A stretch of 54,314 nt of DNA from assembly GCA_026419775.2 (NCBI GenBank), contig JAOPGA020000997.1, forward strand, positions 1-54,314, in the 5' to 3' direction. This document shows positions 7,366-41,585 of this stretch, in pieces. The notes beneath the pieces are model-generated. The model was not told the DNA's origin. It saw only the letters and a list, made by a program, of their open reading frames with translations, and ran no database searches. Numbering within the stretch: the first letter of the stretch is position 1; every line of letters begins with the position of its first letter. The position numbers and the translations under genes were made by a program. The DNA comes from Acrasis kona. Taxonomy: Eukaryota; Heterolobosea; Eutetramitea; Acrasida; Acrasidae.

Positions 7366-8415
7366 ATGAAACGTGGGTCTTCACCACCCCCCGAGGGGTA
7401 TGATGACATCATAAAAGAGGTACAGCAATATAGATTTCAGGGGAATGGTATGGACACAAATGATCAAATACAGTGTTTGAGGCAACAACTTTTGTTAAAT
7501 CAGCTTCACCAAAGTTCATCAAGTGATTCTTCACAAACTGAAATTCTAAGCAATCTTCTTCTACGGTTACAAATGCAAGATACTCAAATGGATCAGCTAC
7601 GGGCAATTGCAGAAGGAATGAAAATGATAATCGAACATCAATTACAAACTATCCAAAGTTATCAGGATAGGCACAATAATGAGGTCGAAGATTTGACTAA
7701 AAAATCGTCAAACAAGAGGAAGTCTCTCGTCGTTCATCCGCTCGATGATTTTAATGTTCGAAACGATTCCAACAACATGTATCAAAATATTGAACAACAA
7801 CCTCAGCGTAAAAAGCAAAGACTTTCACAAGGTAATGTTAATGATGTTCCCCAGCAACAACAACAACAAATGCCCCAACAACTCATTCAACAAAACGGGT
7901 TTAATCCTTATCAGCAGCAACAAGTCATTTCCTTTACTCCCCAACCGTCACAACCCGTATATTCTCCCTACATCCAACAATCCCTACAACAAAGCTACTC
8001 GCCTGCTTATGACCAACAACAACAAGTTTTCATGTACCCTCAACAATCAAACATACAGCAACAGTTGCATCAATATAACATTCAACATAACATGCAACAA
8101 CAAAATATGCAACAATTCATTCCTGGGCTAAACATTTATCAACAACAACAGCTGCCACAACAACAATCACAACAACAGATGCAACATTTTCAAACAATGC
8201 AGCCTCAGCAACAACAGATGCAACAAATCAATTATGTACAGGACAATTTTAATCATTATGGCACGCCTGCGGGACATTATGTACAGCCTGTCCCTGTCGC
8301 ACAGAACAACATTATCAACAATTTCAATAACGACGACGTGAATAGCGACGGAGTACGCAACAGAGACGACAAACAAAGAAGATCCAGTGGGGGCAGAGTA
8401 TGGACCCACATGTGA
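7366..8415 (+). CDS. Glutamine-rich low-complexity protein, probably nuclear
   Basis: 349 aa from the ATG at 7366 (MKRGSSPPPEGYDD). The frame is open upstream to an ATG at 7261, but that leader (residues 1-35) is hydrophobic and dissimilar, so the later start is preferred. Residues about 25-120 predict a helical/coiled region (QCLRQQLLLNQLHQ; LSNLLLRLQMQDTQMDQLRAI). A basic patch QRKKQRLS could act as a nuclear signal. The rest is Q/P/Y/N-rich with many CAA/CAG runs of up to five glutamines, like activation or condensate-forming domains of transcription co-factors. No catalytic domain. Function cannot be named. Confidence 0.72.
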   Translation: MKRGSSPPPEGYDDIIKEVQQYRFQGNGMDTNDQIQCLRQQLLLNQLHQSSSSDSSQTEILSNLLLRLQMQDTQMDQLRAIAEGMKMIIEHQLQTIQSYQDRHNNEVEDLTKKSSNKRKSLVVHPLDDFNVRNDSNNMYQNIEQQPQRKKQRLSQGNVNDVPQQQQQQMPQQLIQQNGFNPYQQQQVISFTPQPSQPVYSPYIQQSLQQSYSPAYDQQQQVFMYPQQSNIQQQLHQYNIQHNMQQQNMQQFIPGLNIYQQQQLPQQQSQQQMQHFQTMQPQQQQMQQINYVQDNFNHYGTPAGHYVQPVPVAQNNIINNFNNDDVNSDGVRNRDDKQRRSSGGRVWTHM

Positions 8416-8686
8416 AAGAAATCTTTGGAAGTGTTTCGTGGAAGGCGAAGACTAGAAAGGACACTTTAGAGTTGGCTGATGTAATGTCGTGATGTGTGTT
8501 TAACCAACATGGATCCGTTATGGTGCGGCATGTGGTCGTTGTCAAAGGAGAATACTGAATAATGTATTTGGAAAACATATGAATATTTATTGTAGAAATA
8601 AAAGTACACTATATTACGTAACTATCTTGTGATTAAGACCTTCTGTGATTGATACAGAATGGTTTGTTTGGTTGACCAGAAAATAG

Positions 8687-9849
8687 ATGAAGTCGGTAAT
8701 AACCCACACAACACGGAGATATGATCAGTTTATAAACTTGTGCGTAATCAAGAATCAATTCAGATGTTACTCTCGTAATCGGAAAATCAAAAAACACAAT
8801 ACACACAAAGTTGAGCACGTAGATGATGCAACGCAGCGGAGCGAAAGTGTTTCGAATGAAAATGTAAATAATGCACCAAAAATGCAAGCAGATCCACTGT
8901 CCAGACTGTCGGAGGATGTAATCGACTTTGAAAATAGATCGTTGTTGACTCTACATGAAAAAGAGTTGTGCAACAAGTCCTTGTTACTCCTACAAAGAGC
9001 TTGTAGGATGATTGATAATGAATGTGTTTTGTCTGTTTTTGGATCTTACGCTACCGGGCTATCTACCAAAGGAAGTGACATTGATGTCACAGTCTCATCA
9101 AAACATCCCAACTTTTTAGCAAAGTTACATCAACTTGCAACAAAATCGAAAGAAGAGTTCAGATCATCCCAGTTGATCAGAGCAAGGGTAAATAAAAATA
9201 ATTTTACATTTCTTAATCATGACAATAGGTCAGCATTTGTAGAGTCCGAACCATTAATGATGTGTTTCTTGATGTCAATTGTCAGAGCGAAAGAGTAAGC
9301 GTTGCAGTCAACATTATCAAAGGCTACCTGAACGAATTCCCACAACTCCGTCCCATCTACATCACAGTCAAGTCTATTCTAAAATGGTACCAACTCAATC
9401 AAGTTTTCACAGGAGGACTGTCAAGCATCTCATTACAATACATGATCGTCCAACATCTTCAACTATACAACAAACACTTTAATGAACAAATACAAAATGT
9501 AACAATAGGCGCCCTACTTCGTGACTTTTTCTTATTTTATGGAAAACATTTTGAACATGGGAAGGTGTCAGTCGATGTACAGAAAAAAGATTTTAACTTG
9601 TTACGTTCTGGTTTGCTATGCATTTGGGATCCAACAAAGAAGCTTCATAATGTTGCCTCAGGTTCATACCGGTATACAGTTGTGCGGGATTTATTTGCGG
9701 CTGCGGGTGAATATTTGTCATCGGAGACTAGACCCACACTGAGTGGTCTTTCTTGTTACCTTCAAGAAAACTTTTTTGTAAGACAAGTTGATACTGGGCC
9801 GAGAAGGAATGATTTTAAAAACAATAGAAATAAAAGAAGGTATTATTGA
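8687..9849 (+). CDS. Noncanonical poly(A)/U polymerase (TRF4/PAPD/TUTase type), probably mitochondrial
   Basis: Adds untemplated nucleotides to RNA 3' ends. Exons 8687-9187 and 9229-9849, 41-bp intron, 373 aa. The catalytic core shows FGSYATGLSTKGSDIDVTVS (GS motif plus the DxD metal pair) and the third acidic residue in NDVFLDVNC, which becomes visible only after splicing. The central/PAP-associated region has LRPIYITVKSILKWYQLNQVFTGGLSS, typical of this family, and a basic tail (RRNDFKNNRNKRRYY) suited to RNA binding. The N-terminus is basic and contains RCYS, matching the R-x-Y/S mitochondrial processing consensus, so a mitochondrial enzyme like MTPAP is possible. Its stop lies 2 bp from the stop of the converging RhoGAP gene. 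Confidence 0.88.
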
Positions 9850-9851
9850 CT

Positions 9852-11249
9852 TTATCTCTTCTCAAATTTGTCAACTGTATGGAAGACTGTTCCTCTTCTT
9901 ATTCCGCCAGTGTCTGATGGTGAGGTTGACACGCGCTGTGTTCCACACTCTTGGAGTCTGATTTTCACATTTTCAATTCTTTTTGACGAACCCCTCACTC
10001 CTAGTGTCTCACTTCTGTTTCTACGTCCTACACTCGGCGTCGATATTGATTGTTTTGTACTAAATAAAACTCTAATCCTTGGATTGTTTGTGTTCGCGTA
10101 GTCAAATGCTGAAAGTTCAACGTTTATGAAATTTTCTCTCTCTTCGTTATTTTGTGTATCGTTTTCTTGTAATGGTGAACTTGGTAGTTCTGGTTCTTTA
10201 TTGACAACAATCGGGTTCGCGCAAGGAGCTTTCAAGCGAGGAGTTTTTATCAAACGTTGATGATCGTGTGCGGTAGTTGTAATTGGTTCTTCGACAGGAT
10301 CTTCGGTCATTGGTGTCGTTTTTCTTTTATCCACTCGGGGACTCTTTATGATTTGAGTTATTGCCTTCGTTCTAGCTTTAATTCGGCTGTGTAAATGTTC
10401 AAAAAGATCGTTCTCTGGTAACTGGTCATTTGTAAAGTCAAAAACAGAACCATAGTGCTTCAACATTATTAGATATGCTCTTCCATGAGGATCCATACCG
10501 AAAAGACTTGTTATTAAGTTTGATTGTGTCATTTGATTGATGTGGGAATTATCGCTAATACGCTTCAGATGCGAAACAAAGTATACAAGCATGTCTCTAT
10601 TGTGTATTGGTAACTTTTTTACGCATGATCTTAAATGATTAATTTTATCTTTTATACTTGCGGGGTCGTTTGGATCGATGCTGAATTTCTTCAGTTGGAA
10701 CTCAATTGATAAGTTTTTTGTGAATATTGTATCGGGTAGTTGGGCGATGTAAGTCCTTACAAATGAACAAACATCGTGAGCGACATGTTGGTGTACATTA
10801 TCATCCTCTTCTTTAGCAAAGTTAATAGCTTCCAAGTTATCTATTCTTTGTTTATATTTTTCGACTATTGATTTGTTTCCCGAAATTCTATACAGGCCCA
10901 CTTCATCCAAATGTCTTCTATTAATGTATTCAATTGCTTGTACCATATGGCAAGGTATGGTGGTCAGTGTGCTATGGGGTAGTTTATCTGTGGCGTACCA
11001 AAGTGGAGAACCAAAGATGGTGGTGTATGTTTTGTTCGTTATTAGCGGGTCCGACTCTAAATTATATACGTATGGAGACATTGGTGAGCATAGCGATGGT
11101 GAGGGTACATTTGGTGATAAAGGGGTCATGGGTGATGCTGGTAATGGATTTACTATAACAAATCCATCGTTTTGATTTTTACTTGTATCGATCTTTTTCC
11201 GTTCATCTGATGAATTAGAATGAAACGTGAGCCTGAACTTCTTCATCAT
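9852..11249 (-). CDS. RhoGAP domain protein
   Basis: 465 aa, single exon. Residues about 78-280 are a RhoGAP domain: FGSPLWYATDKL start, VGLYRISGNK with the arginine finger at R121, and the helix HNRDMLVYFVSHLKRIS, so it should stimulate GTP hydrolysis by Rac/Rho-type GTPases that control actin. The N-terminal 70 residues are Ser/Pro-rich (MTPLSPNVPSPS) and the C-terminal 185 residues are a disordered, basic and Thr/Ser-rich tail; both are likely phosphorylation regions. Start chosen at MMKKFRLTFH. It is divergent from DRC2 (105 bp between starts) and converges on the polymerase gene. Confidence 0.9.
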   Translation of the reverse strand: MMKKFRLTFHSNSSDERKKIDTSKNQNDGFVIVNPLPASPMTPLSPNVPSPSLCSPMSPYVYNLESDPLITNKTYTTIFGSPLWYATDKLPHSTLTTIPCHMVQAIEYINRRHLDEVGLYRISGNKSIVEKYKQRIDNLEAINFAKEEDDNVHQHVAHDVCSFVRTYIAQLPDTIFTKNLSIEFQLKKFSIDPNDPASIKDKINHLRSCVKKLPIHNRDMLVYFVSHLKRISDNSHINQMTQSNLITSLFGMDPHGRAYLIMLKHYGSVFDFTNDQLPENDLFEHLHSRIKARTKAITQIIKSPRVDKRKTTPMTEDPVEEPITTTAHDHQRLIKTPRLKAPCANPIVVNKEPELPSSPLQENDTQNNEERENFINVELSAFDYANTNNPRIRVLFSTKQSISTPSVGRRNRSETLGVRGSSKRIENVKIRLQECGTQRVSTSPSDTGGIRRGTVFHTVDKFEKR

Positions 11250-11354
11250 CTTGCTGTTGTTCCTGCGCTAATCAACTCGTCAAACGTCATGGACGAAACG
11301 GCGGTTATATATCAACATGAAGGGTTTACAATCTGAATAACTACAGATAAACCC
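11250..11354. promoter_or_regulatory. Shared divergent promoter, RhoGAP / DRC2
   Basis: The two start codons are 105 bp apart on opposite strands. A TATATATC-like stretch near 11306-11312 faces DRC2. Any control elements of both genes must lie here or inside the genes. Confidence 0.5.
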
Positions 11355-12914
11355 TTGAAAATGAAGTTAGATAACCACATCAAGGGTTCTGCTCAAGATA
11401 CACCTGTAGAAGAAAATCCAGAATCAGCAGAAAACACAGCTACGCTACTGCAAGATGTAGCTAGACTAAAAGAAGAGGAAAATAGAAAAAAGAGGGAGGA
11501 ACATTTGAAGGCGAAGCTGATGGAAATGAAGTTGGAAGAAGACCGATTCTCCAAGTCTAATAAAATTAAGATACAAAATAATTGGCTGAAAATCTTGAGA
11601 GAGGCAAAAGTCCAAGAGCTGAAACAGCAGATTCAAATTTTGGCACAAGCCCACGACAGACAAGTTGATCGTAAAGATGCAGTCGTTCAAATGCTGTACC
11701 GCGACCTAGACGAAAGCGAAGAGCAGTACCGACTTGCCCTTCGGACGCACTTACAACACACGGACGAACTCCTCGAATTACAATCAAAAATAGTCGAAAA
11801 CTTGTCACGTGAATTTAACAACGACTTGTACCTACTCAAAACGGAGTATGAAGAGGAAAGAAACGAGATACTAGAGACATTTAAAAGAGATGTGAAAGAA
11901 TGGCAGGAAATAGACAAAGAAATGCACAAACGTCACCTTAAAATAAACGAACAGATGGAAACCGAACATGCACAAACAAAAGAGCACATCAAGAACAAAT
12001 ACAACGAAAACTTTAACGTCATGTCAATGCTCCTCGAATCAGAATTCAAATCAGTCGAAGATGCCTCAAGAGATGAGAACGAAAGTCATACCAACGAGAT
12101 GGATGCCAAATTCAAAGAGTACCTAGTCCAGCGCGGAAAGGATGACGACACAACTGACGAGATCAAGGGTCAAATCATGAGGATAAAGATTTTTGAAGAT
12201 AGTCTGGCAAACTGGAGGGCAAAATGGCTGAACAACTTGAGGGAATGCGAAGAGAGAAACAAGCAACTAGTTCACGAGAAGAACGTCCTCGCAAAGCATT
12301 TCAAAACTCTAAAGTTGAGAATGCAACGTTTCAGAGAGGGAGAGGAGAAGAGATTGAAAGATCTCGTCAAGATGAGCAAAGAAACAAGGGACGTGTTGGA
12401 AGAAAAATTAGAGAGGGCAAAAAGAATCCTGCAAGTTGCAGAGTTGAACAGAAAGATGGAAACAGAAAGAGAAAAGATTTTACCTTTCGAAAGCGACCTT
12501 GACGGTAAAAATGGATTCTCCTTGGACGGACTCGAAAATCAAGACAAGATCAACAGCACATTTACAGAGGAGGATGAAGTAATGGCAGAAATCCAAAAGA
12601 CCGCACAAATGCAACATGCAGCAGAAAATCAATCAGAGTGGGAAATGTTCCATAGGTTCTACAAAAAGTACAGCAAAGTATTGTTAGATAAAACAGCATT
12701 GGAGCAAGAGAAAGTACATTTAGCCGCACAGAATGAGCAGTTGAGACAAATGTTGAAGGATTACTTGGACGGCATATCAGTTAATGAGGATGTACTCAAC
12801 AACAAGAATCCTCTGCTCATGATAGAGAGCTTAGAGGACCGCCGTCAAATGCAACATGTGGTCGTTAATGCCAACCCTTCAGGTAACTCGAACATTGCAA
12901 TGACGAGATTGTAA
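11355..12914 (+). CDS. DRC2: Dynein regulatory complex subunit 2 (CCDC65/DRC2)
   Basis: 519 aa, almost entirely coiled coil. The N-terminal third carries the family core: KIKIQNNWLKILREAKVQEL, KQQIQILAQAHDRQVDRKDAV and LYRDLDESEEQYRLALRTHL, which line up with the NYD-SP28/sperm-tail region of CCDC65. DRC2 is a scaffold of the nexin-dynein regulatory complex that links doublet microtubules in motile 9+2 axonemes. The gene therefore says the organism has, or recently had, a motile flagellum. Length agrees with known DRC2 proteins (about 480-550). No intron. Confidence 0.88.
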   Translation: MKMKLDNHIKGSAQDTPVEENPESAENTATLLQDVARLKEEENRKKREEHLKAKLMEMKLEEDRFSKSNKIKIQNNWLKILREAKVQELKQQIQILAQAHDRQVDRKDAVVQMLYRDLDESEEQYRLALRTHLQHTDELLELQSKIVENLSREFNNDLYLLKTEYEEERNEILETFKRDVKEWQEIDKEMHKRHLKINEQMETEHAQTKEHIKNKYNENFNVMSMLLESEFKSVEDASRDENESHTNEMDAKFKEYLVQRGKDDDTTDEIKGQIMRIKIFEDSLANWRAKWLNNLRECEERNKQLVHEKNVLAKHFKTLKLRMQRFREGEEKRLKDLVKMSKETRDVLEEKLERAKRILQVAELNRKMETEREKILPFESDLDGKNGFSLDGLENQDKINSTFTEEDEVMAEIQKTAQMQHAAENQSEWEMFHRFYKKYSKVLLDKTALEQEKVHLAAQNEQLRQMLKDYLDGISVNEDVLNNKNPLLMIESLEDRRQMQHVVVNANPSGNSNIAMTRL

Positions 12915-20407: not shown

Positions 20408-21682
20408 CTAATTTTCAGGGTTTTGTTCTGCATTCTTCTTCTCATTATACAATAAACTTTTATAGAGCAAATGATCTGGATCTGGACCTGTGGACCCATT
20501 GGCTAATCTATCATAACCTGCCTGCTCAATTGAGTCCACAAGAGAGTCAGAGTGCATTATTGAGATAAGTTTATTATATATCGCGGGCGGAATGGCACCG
20601 GCTAGATTGAACAGGGCTAATGAAGTGTACCGACAATGACCGCCTCTGACTTTTTCATAAATATACCCGGCAAGGGCGGTGGCTTTGACGTGCCTCGGGT
20701 TGTATGGTACATTTTCTACCTCTACTGTTTTGCTCATCATAACAATGCCACCATTTTCAAGTCTCTTCACAGCGTTACTTGTGATGATATATCTATTGGT
20801 TAATGGGAATGGGAGCACTATTTCATGATGCGTAATCACCGCATTAAACTTTTCGAAATCAATACTATATTGATGAGTTCTCTTGCTCTTGAAGATTTCA
20901 CTATCAATCTGTGCGGAGTACCGTGAGCATTGTGTGATGTAAAACACTTCATCACAATCAAAAGGAACAGAAACAACATGCTTGATGGTTTTGAGACCGT
21001 TGACCTCGGCTTTTGATAAACTTCGGCAACAGCGCTTTGCTTGTTTTATAATCTGCCATTCCCCACCACTTGAAGCGAATCTAATCATGATCTTTCTAAA
21101 ATCTTCTTCAGTTACTTCAGGCTTTGTATCAAAATCATAACAACTCTCCAACTCCAAGACGGAGAGCCTTCTTTCTACTTTGATTGTACCGATTTGAGAT
21201 AGATATTCTTTGTTTTTCTTCAACTCCTTGTGTACATGCGATATAAAGAGGTCCGAGGCGACGAAACTACTCATACAATCCTCTTTTAACTCCATGAAAA
21301 TTGCGACCCGAAGCTCATTGAACAAATTACTGTCGCAATTTGCGGGACTTGAAGCAGAGTACCTTTGTAAGGTGGTTTCTCTTAACTTTCCACTGATATT
21401 AACTTCCTTTGGCGATCCAATAGAAATGTATTCCCTTACAATCCTCTCTGCGGCCTTGTACCTTGATGATGTCCCAACATATGTGACGTATTTCTAATGC
21501 GGTTAGTTTGTATGTTGTGATTATGTTTCACAAACCTCCAACTCTGTTAAGAACAAGAACGATTCTTCATTATGTGTATCAACAAGGTATTGTCTAAAAC
21601 ATGTCCTCAAATCTTCTACATCGAGGGCGGACTCAAACTCAAAAGCGTATTGGTTTATTAACTCCTCTGTCTTCTTTGTCAT
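20408..21682 (-). CDS. RGS + START-like lipid-binding protein
   Basis: Two exons, 21536-21682 and 20408-21493, with a 42-bp intron; 410 aa. The RGS domain (about residues 20-150) is assembled only by splicing: LRTCFRQYLVDTHNEESFLFL | YKAAERIVREYISIGSPKEVNIS | SNLFNELRVAIFMELKEDCMSSFVASDLF. RGS domains accelerate GTP hydrolysis by G-alpha. Residues about 190-400 look like a START domain (QIIKQAKRCCRSLSK; FNAVITHHEIVLPFPLTNRYI; IVMMSKTVEVENVPYNP; AGYIYEKVRGGHCRYTSLAL), which would bind a lipid. The pairing suggests G-protein signalling controlled by, or at, a lipid-containing membrane. RGS is confident, START moderately so. Confidence 0.78.
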
Positions 21683-23346: not shown

Positions 23347-24018
23347 ATGCTTGGAAGCTTGGCCGGTCTTAATGTTGCAGAACACATCAGTAAAGATCTC
23401 TCACCTCGCAACGCATTATCGAACGTAAACAAATTTGGAGGAGTTTCTTTAACAACCATTGATACATCAACACAACTTCGTTCGCCCAGAAGGCAGAGTG
23501 TAATTGGAGCATTTGTATCGCCTTCAAATAGAAATGAGAGATCAAGAAGTCAAAAAGAGAAGTGTATAGCAGGGATTAGGAACACAATTATACCACAAAG
23601 TGACCAAATAGAATTATTATCAGAAAAATCTGTACAAGAATTGCTACGTAACCGTCGCATTCGTGATAACTTCAGACAGTACTGCGAACTAATACACTGC
23701 TCAGAACTACTTAAATTTTATGAGGCGGTTAACTTCAGTTATAAGACCATGTGTGACTCTAAGATGATGTTAGAGGAGGCTAAGAGGATTGTATCCTTAC
23801 ACTTGACAGAAGGTGTCCCCGGTGAGATAAATACTTGTGAAGCACTCAAAAAAGGTGTTCTAGAAAACATCGAATTGATGAAAGTTGACATTGTTTTGTT
23901 TGATGAAATACTTGATGAGATTGAGTCTGTAAATGGGGTTTTGGTTGATGCCTTTGATAGATATAAAGAGTTTATAAGCGAACAAATCACGTCGGATGTA
24001 GAATTAAATAAACATTGA
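23347..24018 (+). CDS. RGS domain protein
   Basis: 223 aa, single exon. Residues about 95-218 form an RGS domain: VQELLRNRRIRDNFRQYCE, SELLKFYEAVNFSYKTM, LEEAKRIVSLHL, EGVPGEINTCEAL and VLFDEILDEIESVNGVLVDAFDRYKEF, so it should act as a GTPase-accelerating protein for G-alpha. The N-terminal 90 residues are basic and Ser/Arg-rich (SPRRQSVIG, RSRSQKEK) and probably disordered or phosphorylated. The only ATG in frame is the first, so the start is firm unless an upstream exon exists. Confidence 0.82.
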   Translation: MLGSLAGLNVAEHISKDLSPRNALSNVNKFGGVSLTTIDTSTQLRSPRRQSVIGAFVSPSNRNERSRSQKEKCIAGIRNTIIPQSDQIELLSEKSVQELLRNRRIRDNFRQYCELIHCSELLKFYEAVNFSYKTMCDSKMMLEEAKRIVSLHLTEGVPGEINTCEALKKGVLENIELMKVDIVLFDEILDEIESVNGVLVDAFDRYKEFISEQITSDVELNKH

Positions 24019-24285: not shown

Positions 24286-25108
24286 TTATTGTTTATTTGC
24301 CAACAAGGTATTGACTTCAATCTTCATTGCTGTATTTGGTGGCACACAGAGTAAATTACCTCTTCTCCTATAATTTGAGAACCCTAAAGTGTTATAGTGA
24401 CCACGTAAAATACTTACATGTTTCGATTTGTTTCTTAGTCAATCCAGAAGCTCGGGATAGTTCTATTTTTTCTTCTTCTGTAGGGTATGGGCAATCAACG
24501 TTGTTGTTAATCCAAGCAGTAAGAACATTTTTTTGTTGATTTGAATAGGTTACTTTCCTTCTTTTTGCACTAGTGGCCTCATCTTCTCTTGGTCTTTTCA
24601 CTTTTAAATCAGTGAATGTCTTATTGATGTAATCATCAGCCTTCTCGAAGACTTCTTTCTCAATATGTTCTACAATAAAATCTCGACATCCCATAAACCA
24701 ATTAAAAAGCAGTTTAGAGGCTACTTGATATATTTGTACTTTCTGTGAATCTGCATCTGACATTTCATTAATTATATTTTTGGTTTTGTCAAGGTATGAT
24801 AAATATACATCACTCAGATTTAAATTGAGAACATCTTCAAGAAGGTTCACATTTCCATTCATCACATCATGAAACATAACAGTAATTTTATCTCTAAACA
24901 ATGTCAGAGTATTGTGCCAAGTATCCTCAGCATAATTTTCTAACGCTATACAGCTTGTCGTTTCGTCATAGGTGAGTATGACTGGATCGACCTCATTGTT
25001 ACCAAATGGTGTTGAGTTATTAACGATCTCTTCAGAGAAAATATCCGAGAACTCACATTCCAAACAGAGTATGTTGTCATGGGGCAGGCAAGGCTCATAA
25101 CAGAACAT
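24286..25108 (-). CDS. TALE-class homeodomain transcription factor 1
   Basis: Exons 24418-25108 and 24286-24383, separated by a 34-bp intron that cuts the codon of the invariant Trp of helix 3; 262 aa. Homeodomain at about residues 183-238: basic arm AKRRKVTYSN, helix 1 NVLTAWINNN, the three-residue TALE loop with CPYPT (207-210) and, after splicing, QIETWFSNYRRR with the DNA-contacting Asn. A basic cluster KRPREDE/KRRK is a likely nuclear signal. The N-terminal 175 residues are acidic, helical and unlike named TALE partners' domains (MEINOX/KNOX not evident). It lies 132 bp downstream of a second TALE gene on the same strand; TALE proteins typically heterodimerise. Confidence 0.88.
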
Positions 25109-25240
25109 TTGAAACGATTCTTTTAGGTAATTTCCTGAACGGGCGTTTGTTGTAACTATTATTTACATTGATATTTTTTATTATTATACAGATGGATATC
25201 GGAATGTATCATTCAATCTAAGTTAGCGCAATAGATTCCT

Positions 25241-25801
25241 TCATTTGGATCTTGTTCTTTTGTTGATAAACCATCTTTGAATCCTCTTTGTAGGTAGACC
25301 AGTTTCGATTGAGAGACACTCAAGCTCATGCTCATTGGGGTAAGGGTGGTCAATATGGTCCATAAACCAAGTATGAAGAATTTTCGTAGCTGCCCCTGGA
25401 ATCAATTTTGATATTTGTACCTGCGGCCTTTCTAAGTGATTGTTTTTCACATTGTCCAGATACTTAATAAATTTAGCTTCTAGGTCACTCTTCAGTAATG
25501 ATATTTTCATTTGTAATGCGTGATCGCTAGGAAGATTGCATATATTAGCTAACTTGTTCACTCCACTATTTTCCAGAATGAGTGATAGCTCCTCCCAAGT
25601 GGATAATATTTTTTCTATTTTGTCTTCAGATAGTCCATTTACACAGTATTCATGTAGGAAATCTCTTGCTTTGCGCTCATCAATTCTGATAAGAGAAAGA
25701 TCAAAGTAGCGTTGGGTATTGTCAAAATAGTCTACTATATCGACGGAATATATGTTCTCTGTTCCCAAACCTTCAAAGTCGAATACACCTCCATCACTCA
25801 T
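25241..25801 (-). CDS. TALE-class homeodomain transcription factor 2
   Basis: 186 aa, single exon, the homeodomain at the extreme C-terminus (about 132-186): ILHTWFMDHIDHPYPNEHELECL with the TALE HPYP loop, and helix 3 RIQRWFINKRTRSK with Asn51 kept. The usual basic arm before helix 1 is weak (ISKLIPGAATK), which may lower DNA affinity alone and favour action as a heterodimer. The N-terminal 130 residues are acidic and helical and vaguely similar in plan to those of the neighbour TALE gene (for example a 'KYLDN'/'SYLDK' segment), suggesting an old tandem duplication. It sits between TALE 1 and HAP2, all on the minus strand. Confidence 0.85.
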   Translation of the reverse strand: MSDGGVFDFEGLGTENIYSVDIVDYFDNTQRYFDLSLIRIDERKARDFLHEYCVNGLSEDKIEKILSTWEELSLILENSGVNKLANICNLPSDHALQMKISLLKSDLEAKFIKYLDNVKNNHLERPQVQISKLIPGAATKILHTWFMDHIDHPYPNEHELECLSIETGLPTKRIQRWFINKRTRSK

Positions 25802-25888
25802 AACTAGTTTCGTAGATTAACAGTACCCTCACTAATAAGGCAATTTCCATATATGATACAAGCAAGTCAAAACAAAAAAATGCATGCG

Positions 25889-27821
25889 TTATACATAATA
25901 CATTGGTTTATTACGACGTACAGATCTCCCCCTAGTACCCTTGCTCCTAGTCCTTCTCCTGCGATATTCCTCTTCACTGTCATCACTGCTGTCTTCTGAA
26001 CTAGAATATGATTTCTTCTTCTTTTTCTTTACTAGTTTATCTGGATTAGGTAACGCTTTTCTAGCGCTCAAACAACACTTGAAAAGTACGCAAAGCCACC
26101 TCCACCCACCACAATAGGTGAAAACACAACAAAACAATACAATCAAAACTACTGCTACAATTCCTGACAAGTATCCGGCTATTTTGCTCCAAACTTGTTG
26201 TTGGATTAAACAAGCAATGTCGTAACTATTTTTTTCGTTAATATTTGAGGAGATCTTGAACTTACAATGCACATTCTGACCCACCGCCATTTGAAGTGGT
26301 TGAGGTGGATCCACTTTGATCAGGTGGATTATTGGCGTTTGGTACAGACGTTAATTGATCTGTTGCAGTGAATGATACTGTAACTGAATCTTGAACGGCG
26401 CTAGTGGAGTCCAATAGTTTCAATGTACATGTATTTTTAGTCTCGGATGCTGTATTTACATTTATAATCAGAGTATTTGTTGCAGTTGAAAGACCACCCA
26501 TTTGAATTTGTATAGCTGCAACAGGTAAAACATTACTAGAGCAATCAGATAGCGTTATCGAATAGCCAGCGTCTATTGTTCCTGTGTTTTTTGTTACCAC
26601 TAATAATCTACCCTGCCTCGACAATGATGAAAACGATGAGATGATTGCACTCAATATCTTCCCTGGACTAACAGCAGTCACAAATGATATGCTATCAGCT
26701 ACCATTTCTATGGTGACCAAGGAGGAGCCACTATTCGAAATATAATATTGTAATGAGTACTTCGAACTAGAATTAGTAATAGACGCTGTGCCATATGCAG
26801 GTAACAAGTAGTTTGGTGTTTCACCTGAAGCTATCTTTTTTGCATCTCTTTGGTAAAAATCTTCTAATTGATTTTGTAAGCAGGCATTGGGTTGTGCAGA
26901 GCAACCATTGGCCTGAAGTGCAAACCCTTGATAACCCGTACCGATCACATCGCACTGGGTATCTGTTCCAGTATAACTTTTTTCTAATATCATACTGTAA
27001 GCTTGAGGATTCTTTACTCTCACACTTGAAGATGGCCTTGTGGGTATAAATAGGTATTTACTATCAAAAGAAGGCGTACTCGAGTAACTTGAAAAATCTC
27101 CAGTGAGAGTCACTTTGATACCTGTAGTAGTATCTATAGTAGTGGGAGTTGATGGATTAACGATCATTGTAGTCGTTTTGCCACCTGGTGAGGTATCTGT
27201 TACTGTTATGGTGATATCAAAGTTTTTCTGTCCTGGACCTATTTCGTACCCACTGTACCATAGTGGATCAAAAACCAAACATGATGCAGAGGAATGTTGA
27301 GTTTTGAATAATGAGCAACCGAGAGATGCTCTTGTATTTCCTCCTGTAAGACCTAGTACTTGACTCAGTGAGCATGAGCAACAAAAACCTTGGCTATATG
27401 CGATCTTGTTGCCACTTGAATCATACTGCCATCCACAAGTAGGATTTGAATCTGTTGAGCCAGATTTGCAAGTTGATACTATTACGTCTTGGGTGTAGAT
27501 TATTTTCTCAACTGGTTTTGAGTTGTAATCACGATTGTAGTATAGTGGGTAAATCATGCTTGGAGTGGATCTTGAAATTTTGATGGTGATTGGATGTGTC
27601 AAAGGAACGGATGTAATAGATGGTGGTGCGGCTGATGTTATCTTCGAATTTAAGGAGACTGATGATCCAGATATTGTGAATGATGTAACTAGCTTCTGTT
27701 TGCAATTTAAATCCGTCGACGATGTTGTTGTACATGTTTGTATTTGTCCACTTGAAATACTTTGCGAATTGATAAGTTCTGCGATGAGCACAAATACAAA
27801 AACAATTGTTGCGTTCCTCAT
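25889..27821 (-). CDS. HAP2: HAP2/GCS1 gamete fusogen
   Basis: Exons 26266-27821 and 25889-26225 with a 40-bp intron; 630 aa. A signal peptide (MRNATIVFVFVLIAELINSQ) is followed by the HAP2-GCS1 ectodomain: cysteine-rich segment with QGFCCSCS (about 144-151), then SASCLVFDPLWYSGYEIGPG (178-197), both hallmark blocks of the family. Exon 2 supplies the membrane-proximal FYDIACL, a transmembrane helix (about 531-557) and a cytosolic tail with a cysteine pair, a poly-Lys run, a Ser/Asp/Glu block and a final Arg-rich part, typical of HAP2. The protein is a class II-like fusogen that merges gamete membranes in fertilisation across plants, algae, ciliates and amoebae. Presence implies sexual fusion or a recent history of it. 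Neighbours are two TALE regulators and a 7TM-RGS receptor. Confidence 0.93.
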
Positions 27822-28048
27822 CCTGTTATGATGTTATATTTGGTTGTTTCCATTTATGTAAGTTTATGATTACAAAAAATCCATTCGGTTGTTCATGGTA
27901 TGGCAAATACTAAATAGTTTATAATAAGTTTATTTGGGTAACACAAGCGCCAATTCTTCACCAAGCAATCTTTCCAACAAGCATACTCACCCTACATGTG
28001 TTTACCACCCTGAACGTTTAATTTAACCCTACTCTATGTTTAAATTAT

Positions 28049-29447
28049 TCACTGTGGCTTGGGCTGCCTCTTCTCCCTCTGATGAGAAACAAAGCGTAAA
28101 TAAACATCGTTCATATTTGATAAAATACATCCCTCCAGTTTCATAAATATTTCATCGTGTAAATGTACTTCTTCATCATTTTCGGATGATTCCATGCGTT
28201 CAATGGATGCTCTCAAGTCGTTCAGAATATCAATTGGGTTCGATAAGTTGAGTTCAGCAGGGCTGTTCTCCACGAGGTATCTATCAATAATCTCTTGAGC
28301 CTTTTCAATTCTCTTCCTGTTACTACTGAGAGATTTGTACAATTGTATATCTTCCCAACAAACTATTGTAATTAGAAATAAATTATGATTTAAAGACTTA
28401 CTCAAATCCTCTACACAGAATGACTTCATGGCGTATTCTTTGAATAACTTTCTCGTCACGTCGTACTCTAACGTAACGAGTATGTTATCTTCAATGTAAG
28501 GTGCAGCATCTTCTTTTTGATCAGATGATGGACGTTGGAATAGCTCAAAAGCAACAATACATGGATACAAGTTGTTACAAATATGATCAAAAGTAATTGG
28601 AAACAATAGAATCCAAACTGCAGGAATATATTTCTCTCCAGTTCTGACGAAGGCCGGAATGGACTGCGTGATTCCAAACATCACACAAAACACTACGTAC
28701 ACAATGATGGAGAGCGTGAGTTGTTTGGCAATACCCCACGTGTCTCTCATTTTTGTAATTGTTATCAACACGATGAAGCAAAGTTTTGTTATGCAATAAA
28801 AGAGAAGTGGAATAAAACCAAATATATAAAGATATATACTGATTCCACAACCACTAGTAGAGAAGTAATTTCGTGACCCAGTGGCCGTGTATATACCGGT
28901 CACTAAGGCCCAATATACCGTGTGGAAAAACATCGCAATAAAGAATAAATACCACGTAATGTTTCTTTTTGAGTATTTAAGCACAATCATTATTTGTGCT
29001 GTTATTCTTCCAGTCTCCTTAGAATCTGGTGATAGTTGTGATTGCAACTGACTGACAGCGTACATGCGAAAGAACCTGTCGCACCTTAAGAAAAGTGTGA
29101 CAACTAAAGCTGGGTACACCACAAAGTATTGGAGTGTATATAAAAAGCATGGAAATACTGTCCTACCTACTGATATTCTTATAAAAGAACATGCAAGCGC
29201 TATGTAACCAATTAGCATGGATAATAGCATGAGTGGTAGGCCTCTCACTTTGATTTGCTCATGGTCTCTTTTAATGTATATTGCAATGGAAAGTAGGATG
29301 GCGAATACCAGGTAGAAGGCACCTACACGTGTGAAACAAACAATTTCATATATTTTACTTACAGACAATCCCCGCTAGAACTCGGTTGTATATGAAATCT
29401 TCTAAAATTCCAGAGCCGAAGTTATAACTCACACTTGTGACGTTCAT
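28049..29447 (-). CDS. Seven-transmembrane receptor with C-terminal RGS domain
   Basis: Exons 29363-29447, 28402-29322 and 28049-28362, with introns of 40 and 39 bp. The ATG at 29447 gives an outside N-terminus with an N-glycosylation site (MNVTS) and splices in phase 1. Seven hydrophobic helices follow (for example AFYLVFAILLSIAIYI, YLFFIAMFFHTVYWALV, AVWILLFPITFDHIC), then an RGS domain assembled over intron 2: LFKEYAMKSFCVEDLI|CWEDIQLYK, EKAQEIIDRYL, SPAELNLS and DEIFMKLEGCILSNMNDVYLRF. This is the 7TM-RGS layout of plant RGS1 and amoebal proteins: a receptor that also accelerates G-alpha GTP hydrolysis. Intron 2 has no stop and keeps frame, so retention would add 13 residues inside the RGS domain. 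Confidence 0.86.
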
Positions 29448-30421: not shown

Positions 30422-31831
30422 ATGAAAATCACAGCCCTCGCAGCCTCTCTAGCCTTTGTCGCAGGTTCAGTATTCGGAATCGATGCTGACGCCGTTGTTT
30501 GTACACCAGTACAAGTCGTGAACTCCAACATTTTGTTCGCAGCAAACAACAACACATTATACAAGTACACCATCCCAGATTTGAGTCTACAACTCACAAG
30601 CTCCGGAGAGTTATTGTGCCAACCTGGATCCCAACAAGGCGACCAAGTTGTCTTCGCACAAAACTTGGAGAACACCAAGAGCATCTCATACTCAACATCC
30701 ATCCTTACTCCCACAAAATCAGACACTCCTGCTCCATACACCACACCATACTACGTTGAGTACGGTGGCGGATCCGTCTCAGATGGCGACGATAAGTACA
30801 CCTACACCACAGGTGTTTTGACACACACCAGAGGTGGTGCAGTCATTGAGACTTTGGACATTGACACCACCGACAACGTAGCCGCTTACATCAGTTTCGA
30901 CAAGGACGTAGAAAACAGAATTCACTTGGCCACCAGAACTTCTCAAGGAAGAGGAGGTACGCAACTAACTTACTACACCTTAACCAAGTCACCTCTTGCC
31001 TTGGTAAGATGCGGTGTTGCTCTACCCGGTACCGTTCTAAGCGGATGCCCAGTCCAAGCAAACAAGTGTGCTGTTCCAGTTACCGTCGACTTCAAGATTC
31101 AAAACGATATTGTGACCTACTTGTGGAGCATCGTCAAGGACGAGAATGACTTCCAAGTCACTGCCGTTACCTACGACGCCAGATGTGGATCTCTAAACTC
31201 CTTACCTCTTGGATCAACTCTACGACCCATTGGAAGATGCACCGAAGTTGTTGCACCTGGATGCGGCGCATCTACCGCTGGACCAGCCACTACTACCGCT
31301 GCACCAACAAGCACCAATGCACAAACTACTTCTGCGCCAACTACTTCTGCACCTGCACCAACTACTGGACTACCAATCTGTGGTGCCAATCAGAACTTAA
31401 GCGGTGATAATAATGCTTCACCTGCGAGAAGAGTTCAGACTGCTTCTTCATCATGCGAGAACCAAAACTTGAGTGGAGACAACAACGCTTCTCCAGCAAG
31501 AGTTTCTAAGAGAACTGCAGTTTGCTCTGGACACGGTCAATGCGACTCTAACAAGGTCTGCCAATGTGCTTCTGGATTTGAAGGTGAGAACTGCCAGAAT
31601 GCTTGCATCCCAGCAACAACCACAACAGCTCCACCAGTAGGTATTACCAATGTACCATCAACCAAGGCACCTACCACATCAGCACCAACCACTGGAGCCC
31701 CAGCAACAACAAAGGCACCAGTTCAAAATGAAAGTGGTGAGGATCTTTCAAAGGAGGAAAGCCCCTCATCTGCATCCGCAGTTGTAGCAGGTGCTGTAGG
31801 AGCAGCCGCCGTTGCAGCAGCCTTGTTGTAA
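30422..31831 (+). CDS. GPI-anchored-type cell-surface protein with EGF module
   Basis: 469 aa. Signal peptide MKITALAASLAFVAGSVFG; a beta-rich ectodomain of about 270 residues with paired cysteines; mucin-like Thr/Ala/Pro stretches at about 285-315 and 400-435; an EGF-like module (CSGHGQCDSNKVCQCASGFEGENC; shown in part: C-x3-G-x-C...C-x-C...G-x2-C); and a hydrophobic Ala/Val-rich C-terminus (AVVAGAVGAAAVAAALL) without basic stop residues, as in GPI signals. Before the EGF module a 14-residue block NQNLSGDNNASPAR occurs twice. Codon use is strongly biased to C-ending codons, suggesting high expression. Likely an adhesion or coat protein; ligand unknown. Confidence 0.83.
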   Translation: MKITALAASLAFVAGSVFGIDADAVVCTPVQVVNSNILFAANNNTLYKYTIPDLSLQLTSSGELLCQPGSQQGDQVVFAQNLENTKSISYSTSILTPTKSDTPAPYTTPYYVEYGGGSVSDGDDKYTYTTGVLTHTRGGAVIETLDIDTTDNVAAYISFDKDVENRIHLATRTSQGRGGTQLTYYTLTKSPLALVRCGVALPGTVLSGCPVQANKCAVPVTVDFKIQNDIVTYLWSIVKDENDFQVTAVTYDARCGSLNSLPLGSTLRPIGRCTEVVAPGCGASTAGPATTTAAPTSTNAQTTSAPTTSAPAPTTGLPICGANQNLSGDNNASPARRVQTASSSCENQNLSGDNNASPARVSKRTAVCSGHGQCDSNKVCQCASGFEGENCQNACIPATTTTAPPVGITNVPSTKAPTTSAPTTGAPATTKAPVQNESGEDLSKEESPSSASAVVAGAVGAAAVAAALL

Positions 31832-39280: not shown

Positions 39281-39787
39281 TTATAACTTCCGTCAGGGCC
39301 CCGTAAGCTATCTCCTACATTTATTTTCAGAATATGAGGATAATGTGTCCCAAAATATCTTTTTGACAAATTTAACAGTCAGAAGATGAGATCAGACACC
39401 TCTATCCATATTTGAAATTAGTGTTGTTTATGGCAAATGATAATTATTGATAGTCTACATGATCCATAGGAATCATTCTTGATATCAACTAACCAATCTG
39501 TATTAAACATTTCATTGTTTAATATTTTAGACCCACAAGGGGTCCGGCACATTATTTTATGTGGAATTAACCATTCAAATCATTCCAAAGACACGAAGAA
39601 TGCAAAATGGACACCCACATAGCGTCGCTGCCGACAAGGTCGTTTATAGGAACTAGTTTTAACATAATACCGCCGCACGGGCCTTAGACGGGTCAATGGT
39701 AATTTCTAAAAATATAAAGATCTAGAAAGGGTATTCCACGATTATGATGTTTTTACAAATACAAAGTCCTTCAAGACGTTTTAGGTC
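39281..39787. other. Intergenic, upstream of the Zn2Cys6 gene
   Basis: About 500 bp, AT-rich, no frame. It includes a short inverted pair ATAACCGGTTAT at 39272-39283, close to its left edge, that might bind a dimeric regulator; unproven. Confidence 0.35.
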
Positions 39788-41585
39788 ATGTCCGAAGCCC
39801 CACCAACTGAACCTGAGGAAAGCGTTATGGATACCTCCATAGAAGAGGGCCTATGCCTATTTTCATGCACATACTGTAATAAGCTTCATCGCAAGTGTGA
39901 TCGCAGGTTACCCTCCTGCTCTGAATGCATTAAAAGAAGTAAGGATTGTGTTTACGAAAAGCCGAAAAGGATCAGGAGAAGAAAAAGCAAAGATGTCAGG
40001 GCATCGTTTGATACTCCCTTCACCAAAACTTTAAAATTTCATCACATCAATATACCCGTTTCTGATACAGGCACCCCAATAGATGTTGCAAACATTGTAC
40101 CACCAACAACATTTAACAAAACGGTAGCATCGCTACCCAAAGAGCAAATAACAATAAGTCCCGAGGCACAGATGGAAGAATGCTTTGAAAACATTTACTT
40201 TAACATTCCTTACTTTTCGGCATCCGACAGAGAAACACTTTACAAATACAGACAAATAGACATTAATACAAACTTGTCACAGTTTACAGAAAAGCAGTTA
40301 AAGCTGCTGTCCATAATCTTCGCCATCAAAGGTTAGCATTATTTAAAAAAAACATTCTAAACAACCAACAGCATTTTTCCACCACAGACTGGGACACAAT
40401 GACTTGTCAAAAAAGGCCCTGGAAATCACGCTAAAAATCGTGGGCAGCATTCACTACACGGCCACATCAAGCCTAAGCACGGCTTGTTGTTTCACATACC
40501 TAGCGCTCATTTACGGAGACATGAACGACACGGACAAACTCTACTATTATTCACACAACATTCGTGGATACCTACGTAGGTCAGAACTAACATCCGTCGA
40601 AATTGAATCGGTGGCACAAAGAAGTTTAAGAGAAGTCAAGACACAATACCTTCGAACATTATACCATCTGGGCGTCTATCACAGCTCGTGCATCAACGAC
40701 ATGTGTCGTTTGTTCAAAATACTTTTATGCCTTCATTTGCTCACCAAACAACATCGATTGATTTGTGACGTGGTCAACCAACCGACGCGCCAAGGAGAAA
40801 ATGTTTCAATGATTGGTTTCAATCCACAAGATGAAGAATTCTGTCGATTCCTTCCCCTAATCGACGTGATCCGATACGATCTGGATAATTACAAATCCAC
40901 AATGCCCCTCACCACGGACATGCTGGACATTTTGACATCTCGCACCAAACAAACGCTCGCAGAACCTACGGACGTTAGTGGTGCTGATTTGTATTCGCGC
41001 CGCATGGGATTCTACATTGTGTGTCATGGAGCAAAGCTGCAATGCTTGCGTGCCTCTGGTTTGGAAGCGTATCAAATGACAAGAGAGGTGGCGAGTTACA
41101 TTTTGGAATTGGCATCTTCGCCTTCGTTTCATTATTGTCACCGAACGGCGGTGGCCGCAGTGGCTGCGAGCGTTTCCTACTTTTTAGCATTGCTCGAATC
41201 CCAGCAGTCCTCTACGCAGGCGTCACAAATGGCCGTCATGAACAGCATCCAATCGGGTGTTACCATCATGAACAACATGTGCATCAAGTATCCTGTCATT
41301 GCGATGAATTATGGCGAAATATTGAAAGCCGCTGCGAGCGTGTTGGACCAGTATCATAAAGTACAAATTCCAAAGAGCGTGTTGGAGACAAGACTCAACG
41401 TTGCACCTTTCGAAAACATTTTGATACATGGAACGCAGGATAGTATGATTTGTAGCGATCCTAGTCCGGTTGTGCAGGGCAGCGATATAGAAACTCTGTT
41501 ACATCAATTCTTTTTGGAGAAGGATAGTAAGCAGGAGTTAAGAAGGTCCATCGGAACTCCGACACCCCATGATTTGTTTTTGTAA
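39788..41585 (+). CDS. Zn(II)2Cys6 (fungal-type) transcription factor
   Basis: Exons 39788-40331 and 40372-41585, 40-bp intron, 585 aa. Residues 27-54 are a complete binuclear zinc cluster, C-x2-C-x6-C-x6-C-x2-C-x6-C (C27, C30, C37, C44, C47, C54), followed by the basic linker KPKRIRRRKSK that would set DNA half-site spacing. The remaining 500 residues are mostly helical, as in the fungal transcription-factor middle domain, although no exact motif can be named. The class is overwhelmingly fungal, with scattered members in amoebae and other protists, so either old inheritance or transfer must be considered. Position: divergent from the decayed stretch, 169 bp before the ATG11-like gene. Confidence 0.85.

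Follow-up and report, generated by a model that had tools for sequence, protein, structure and literature searches.

The window, by which we mean the whole stretch of DNA analysed, is contig C493 (54,314 bp) of Acrasis kona, from an assembly of 37.35 Mb in 1021 contigs. A. kona is a heterolobosean acrasid amoeba whose fruiting bodies are built by aggregation (PMC11589745, in part). An earlier note had described four consecutive minus-strand genes in this contig, two encoding TALE homeodomain proteins, one HAP2, and one a 7TM-RGS-type receptor, and gene models and Pfam searches bear this out, with the receptor assigned through its RGS domain and a membrane part read by eye, and the stated coordinates hold as well (Table 1). 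Its figure of 87 to 227 bp for the gaps also holds, the intergenic distances being 132 bp, 87 bp, and 227 bp. The introns of T1, HAP2, and the receptor gene were positioned from splice sites, reading frame, and homology rather than from RNA. The short gaps and the single strand are nothing special within the window and were ruled out as evidence for a module, because other window ORFs in the ORF list are similarly spaced.

Table 1. The four-gene cluster in the window (contig C493); coordinates run in the direction of transcription
Feature	Position	Strand	Description
T1 (TALE 1) homeobox gene	25108-24286	-	262 aa; one 34-nt intron, 24417-24384
T2 (TALE 2) homeobox gene	25801-25241	-	186 aa; intronless; stop directly after homeodomain
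HAP2/GCS1 gamete fusogen	27821-25889	-	630 aa; 40-nt intron, 26265-26226
7TM-RGS-type receptor	29447-28049	-	452 aa; 40-nt intron, 29362-29323

The identities of these genes are well established. Pfam Homeobox_KN matched T1 with 62 bits and T2 with 55.2 bits (cut-off, 24), and both sequences have the PYP loop and the WFSN/WFIN recognition helix that define the TALE homeobox superclass. The public annotation of both genes needs correction: the GenBank model of T1 (AKO1_011877, 147 aa) is missing the N-terminal part, and T2 goes under the name "transaldolase" because of a false 25-nt intron that destroys the homeodomain. Excising those 25 nt from T2 reproduces the GenBank protein. The intact T2 frame is supported by the fact that a relative on the 30,955-bp contig C306 (AKO1_007249) and the gene on contig C845 keep the same frame. 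HAP2 matched Pfam HAP2-GCS1 with 354.4 bits (cut-off, 27.4) over positions 2 to 511 of the 515-position profile, with a frame that is intact after removal of one intron. All six solved-structure matches listed for it, 5ow4, 6e18, and 5mf1 among them, were HAP2-type or uncharacterised chains, mostly named HAP2 or Hapless 2. A signal-like N-terminus, a transmembrane segment, and a Lys/Arg-rich tail were recognized in HAP2 by eye, not by a predictor.

The receptor has an RGS domain at residues 350 to 439 (27.8 bits; cut-off, 23.9), preceded by a hydrophobic N-terminal membrane part that was assigned by eye and that matched no Pfam family above its cut-off, RGS being the only domain found. In this order of parts it is like the 7TM-RGS receptors of plants such as AtRGS1. 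Its membrane part matches at least 13 loci in the genome, all counted as related here, and there is no STE2/STE3 match reaching the Pfam cut-off and no other pheromone sign. The suggestion that it might be a mating-type-linked pheromone receptor is accordingly without support.

Besides the receptor, two more RGS-domain genes lie by the cluster, at window positions 20411-21493 (with a START domain too) and 23347-24018, so that RGS was found by Pfam in 3 of the 10 window proteins scanned. Elsewhere in the window, positions 30422-31831 encode a protein rich in PT whose EGF-like domain scores a little over the cut-off, and this sequence recurs at six other places in the genome at 73 to 74% DNA identity. 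The protein encoded at 39785-40336 carries a Zn(2)-Cys(6) cluster domain of the fungal type (34 bits, Pfam) in a heterolobosean setting.

Homeobox_KN gave 35 matches across the genome, which by our count correspond to about 30 genes once exons and near-identical contigs are merged. In searches with the C845 proteins, similarity extended beyond the homeodomain region in four T1-like genes (C845, C781, C306, and C493) and three T2-like genes (C845, C306, and C493), and was restricted to the surroundings of the homeodomain in the remaining TALE matches. At all three T2 genes found, T2 lies directly upstream of T1 on the same strand, with 53 bp between them at C845 and 132 bp in the window; 0.0015 such neighbours were expected at random. 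A pair of adjacent homeodomain genes is also a feature of fungal HD-type mating-type loci. Since order and strand are constant at all three T2 loci found, the T2-T1 dyad duplicates as a unit, which fits what obligate partners would do. On contig C623 a TALE exon and an RGS exon are 3.3 kb apart; it was considered as a further locus and dropped, as no dyad was seen there.

In each of the four T1 genes an intron interrupts the recognition-helix Trp codon behind the first base, this Trp being position 48 in homeodomain numbering. The intron site is close to the ancient 48(2/3) position, without a clear match, as described in the sections of PMC6219170 at hand. The four T1 proteins also share a C-x2-H-x4-C-x2-C motif near the N-terminus that possibly binds metal. 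Between the three dyad loci, identity is 56 to 79% from the homeodomain on and 23 to 46% in the N-terminal part. The nearest solved structures for both homeodomains are of the MEIS/PKNOX/PBX types, and yeast MAT alpha-2 ranks lower. None of the four T1 and three T2 proteins had a KNOX, MEIS, or PBC family listed in Pfam searches with E up to 10, in which the HMMER filters drop most weak matches. The predicted fold of T2 has a mean pLDDT of 60.7; the homeodomain mostly exceeds 80, while there is an N-terminal part that is helical at low confidence. Protein database searches found no full-length relatives of T1 or T2 outside Acrasis: the T2 sequence alone gave one match, the T1 profile one, and the T2 profile three, one of which covered 28% of the query. 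The T1 profile missed the C306 and C845 T1 proteins and the T2 profile missed the C845 T2, which implies that the database is without these proteins or stores them as other models.

HAP2 proved not to be a single-copy gene. This candidate fusogen has two intact genomic copies, on C493 and C179; a weak third match, on C49, scored 23.7 bits against the 27.4 cut-off and is excluded from the count. The two proteins share 89.8% amino-acid identity (dN = 0.059, dS = 0.961), and residues 96 to 190 are identical. The low dN relative to dS and the identical stretch suggest that both copies are under purifying selection and that the duplication is old. Several HAP2 paralogues are likewise reported in Naegleria (PMC9928731, as far as the available text goes). 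DNA homology between the A. kona copies runs from 36 bp before the start codon to 68 bp before the coding end, and the neighbours differ, those on C179 being a 2-hydroxyacid-dehydrogenase-like gene, a gene for an acidic protein, and one resembling RtcB, named by reading their ORFs. C179 has no Homeobox_KN match and no match to the 7TM-RGS protein, and the contigs of the other two dyads, C306 and C845, have no HAP2 match. Linkage of HAP2 to a TALE dyad is thus seen at one of two HAP2 copies and one of three dyads, at the window locus only. A T1/T2-type gene beside HAP2 was expected 0.0018 times at random, a figure judged after the fact; the gene number behind this and the T2-T1 expectation is from PMC11589745 (seen in part).

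Family searches also matched MND1 (39.1 bits, partial, profile positions 31 to 60 of 60) and HOP2 (74.7 bits, with a weaker second match of 27 bits on C511). The MND1 family also matched a Methanosarcina control, below the cut-off. Taken together with HAP2, the MND1 and HOP2 matches would make a sexual cycle in A. kona plausible; none for Acrasis was met in the literature covered.

The earlier note had looked to divergent alleles between conserved flanks as the mark of a mating-type locus. A DNA search with window positions 24.0 to 30.4 kb found no divergent second version in the single assembly, which represents one strain, its listing consisting of the window, the C179 HAP2, and part of the C306 T1. 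The same search missed C845 and C781, so that alleles that had diverged (to about 70% identity in short stretches) could escape it. Protein-level searches revealed no further T1 or T2 in the assembly. Other DNA searches of the assembly did not list the window's own contig, and their misses are therefore not secure. The assembly had been cleared of scaffolds under 5 kb that exceeded 80% identity to larger ones (PMC11589745, in part). Some second contigs are nearly identical: C195 shares 99.5% identity with the window over positions 7497 to 11609, where C195 ends, and the strain accordingly looks mildly heterozygous or partly duplicated.

A pattern of this kind was seen at a sister dyad. Between C845 (115001-117649) and C781 (1-10000), identity per 100-bp window is 98 to 100% between the T1 homeodomain and the C845 end, a stretch that takes in the homeodomain, the intron, the 3' flank, and the beginning of an alkaline-phosphatase-like gene in which C845 ends. 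Past position 116,703, the 947 bp compared differ at 8 sites, 1 indel and 7 substitutions, which speaks for two real copies. In the N-terminal part of T1, DNA identity falls to 57 to 83% per window. Codons 1 to 190 are 68% identical, with dN = 0.204 and a saturated dS of 2.17, versus dN = 0.014 and dS = 0.061 in codons 191 to 279 (both by Nei-Gojobori). Upstream of T1 no homology was detectable, with T2 on C845 and another ORF on C781; no T2 was found in the approximately 880 bp between T1 and the end of C781. The upstream ORF of C781 had no Pfam match above the cut-off (the best was Colicin_E5, 18.4 bits versus 25) and has a relative on C306 (36% identity over 137 residues).

Three control pairs of contigs held 96 to 100% identity in each of the 92 100-bp windows compared, windows with fewer than 50 aligned columns being excluded and the pair C486/C143 being compared over its first 2.0 kb, where homology exists. 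That pair is about 98% identical for 2.1 kb and then abruptly unrelated, with different genes on each contig; such breaks thus also occur away from TALE genes. In fungal MAT genes of Trichaptum, median dS is above 1.71 and dN above 0.22 by a different estimator (PMC8970355, partial text), and the values of the C845/C781 T1 N-terminal part resemble them. C845 and C781 are possibly alleles, converted paralogues, or an artefact of the assembly, a 454/Illumina hybrid made with MIRA (PMC11589745, in part). Old balanced alleles are a possible reading of the sequence pattern, and the most interesting one.

What, then, is the cluster in the window? It is one of three found copies of a co-duplicated dyad, placed beside one of two constrained HAP2 paralogues. 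The reading we favour, at about an even chance, is that T1 and T2 are obligate TALE partners that would act as a switch in a sexual (gamete or zygote) programme, one copy of which has become linked to HAP2. In this proposal the rapidly evolving N-terminal regions of T1 and T2 would mediate heterodimerisation, and the conserved TALE homeodomains would bind DNA. The dimer would serve as the switch in the gamete or zygote programme, the sexual timing being supposed. The HAP2 linkage, which within this genome is particular to the window locus, may help co-expression. In plants and green algae the haploid-to-diploid switch is driven by TALE dyads, and Naegleria gruberi has a TALE protein with homology to PBC besides another related to MEIS/KNOX (PMC6219170, in extract). 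It is also possible that T1 and T2 have a developmental role in fruiting, given that about 30 TALE genes exist.

The rival that we take most seriously, and yet hold to be somewhat unlikely, is coincidence: an old HAP2 duplicate came to lie next to a TALE dyad of developmental role, with no function in common among the four genes. The confinement of HAP2-copy homology to the surroundings of the gene, with different neighbours on either side, would fit such an origin, and the proteome is highly redundant (PMC11589745, accessible part). Short gaps occur elsewhere in the window, and the adjacency was picked after the fact. Against this stand the rarity with which a T1/T2-type neighbour of HAP2 is expected at random and the sexual roles of TALE dyads in other organisms (PMC6219170, excerpted).

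The remaining rivals concern mating type. That the window interval itself is a mating-type locus, with alternative T1/T2 versions among strains and with HAP2 and the receptor linked to type, is improbable in our estimation. Its gene content (a TALE pair, HAP2, and a receptor) and the allele-like pattern at the sister dyad, with saturated and low dS side by side as in fungal MAT genes, are in its favour; however, the assembly holds no divergent second version even though near-identical second contigs occur, protein-level searches add no T1 or T2, and HAP2 is linked at just one of its two loci and one of the three dyads. The view that the interval decides mating type is not supported so far. The better candidate for a mating-type-like locus is the C845/C781 dyad, with old alleles in the T1 N-terminus and the window as a HAP2-linked paralogue, in which the window dyad would have an effector or downstream role, although this too we consider unlikely. 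A homeodomain and 3' flank that are about 99% identical next to a divergent N-terminal part and an upstream region with no detectable homology argue for it, as does the steadiness of the control pairs over all windows compared. On the other hand, the case consists of two contigs from one strain; conversion between paralogues, or a MIRA mis-join inside the conserved homeobox, would look alike, the C486/C143 control pair breaks abruptly too, and the C781 T1 has no T2 before the contig end. Returning to the favoured switch, the notion of a mating-type locus or sexual module survives in part: the TALE dyad is real, HAP2 is intact and constrained, and MND1 and HOP2 are matched, but a mating-type locus at the window is opposed by the missing second version, the partial HAP2 linkage, and the receptor's at least 13 related loci. 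No alleles that diverge between conserved flanks were found at the window locus in this one assembly, whereas a pattern of that kind is seen at C845/C781.

Known systems offer partial parallels. As with GSM1/GSP1 of green algae and KNOX/BELL of plants, A. kona has two different TALE proteins that are probably partners, and its genome also has HAP2 and meiosis-type genes. It differs in that the two genes are adjacent and co-duplicated and in that T1 and T2 have no listed KNOX, PBC, or MEIS N-terminal domain. The basidiomycete HD1/HD2 locus is likewise an adjacent pair of homeodomain genes with a variable N-terminus and a conserved homeodomain, and the likeness is strongest at C845/C781, with saturated dS beside a flank that is about 99% identical. 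HD1 and HD2 are divergently oriented and of differing class; the A. kona pair, by contrast, is head-to-tail, both genes are TALE, HAP2 is a neighbour, and the window locus has no second allele in the assembly. Dictyostelium, also a social amoeba, has two HAP2 homologues, hgrA and hgrB (PMC4910948, in part), and homeodomain-type control of the diploid phase by matA/matB (PMC5580921, in part), a role that is putative for the A. kona genes; matA and matB differ in being divergent homeodomain-like proteins, and the portion of PMC5580921 available does not mention linkage of HAP2 to a homeodomain gene.

The terms HAP2, homeobox, homeodomain, sexual, mating, and meio are absent from the main text of the A. 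kona genome paper (PMC11589745). In the literature covered, which leaves out most subscription journals, we found no description of this TALE-HAP2-receptor cluster, nor did we meet a described mating-type locus for Heterolobosea. The boldest interpretation, which we judge unlikely, is that A. kona has a homeodomain mating-type system derived from co-inherited TALE dyads, with C845 and C781 as its alleles and the window dyad joined to HAP2. Were this true, the N-terminal parts of the C845/C781 T1 proteins would give partner specificity, and the window cluster would bring together fusion and partner recognition in an excavate distant from animals, fungi, and plants. In sum, the HAP2-linked TALE pair hints at a sexual control switch rather than a demonstrated mating-type locus, and this work supplies named dyads, a HAP2-linked copy, and an allele-like locus at C845/C781, accessible to PCR typing because the strain can be cultured.
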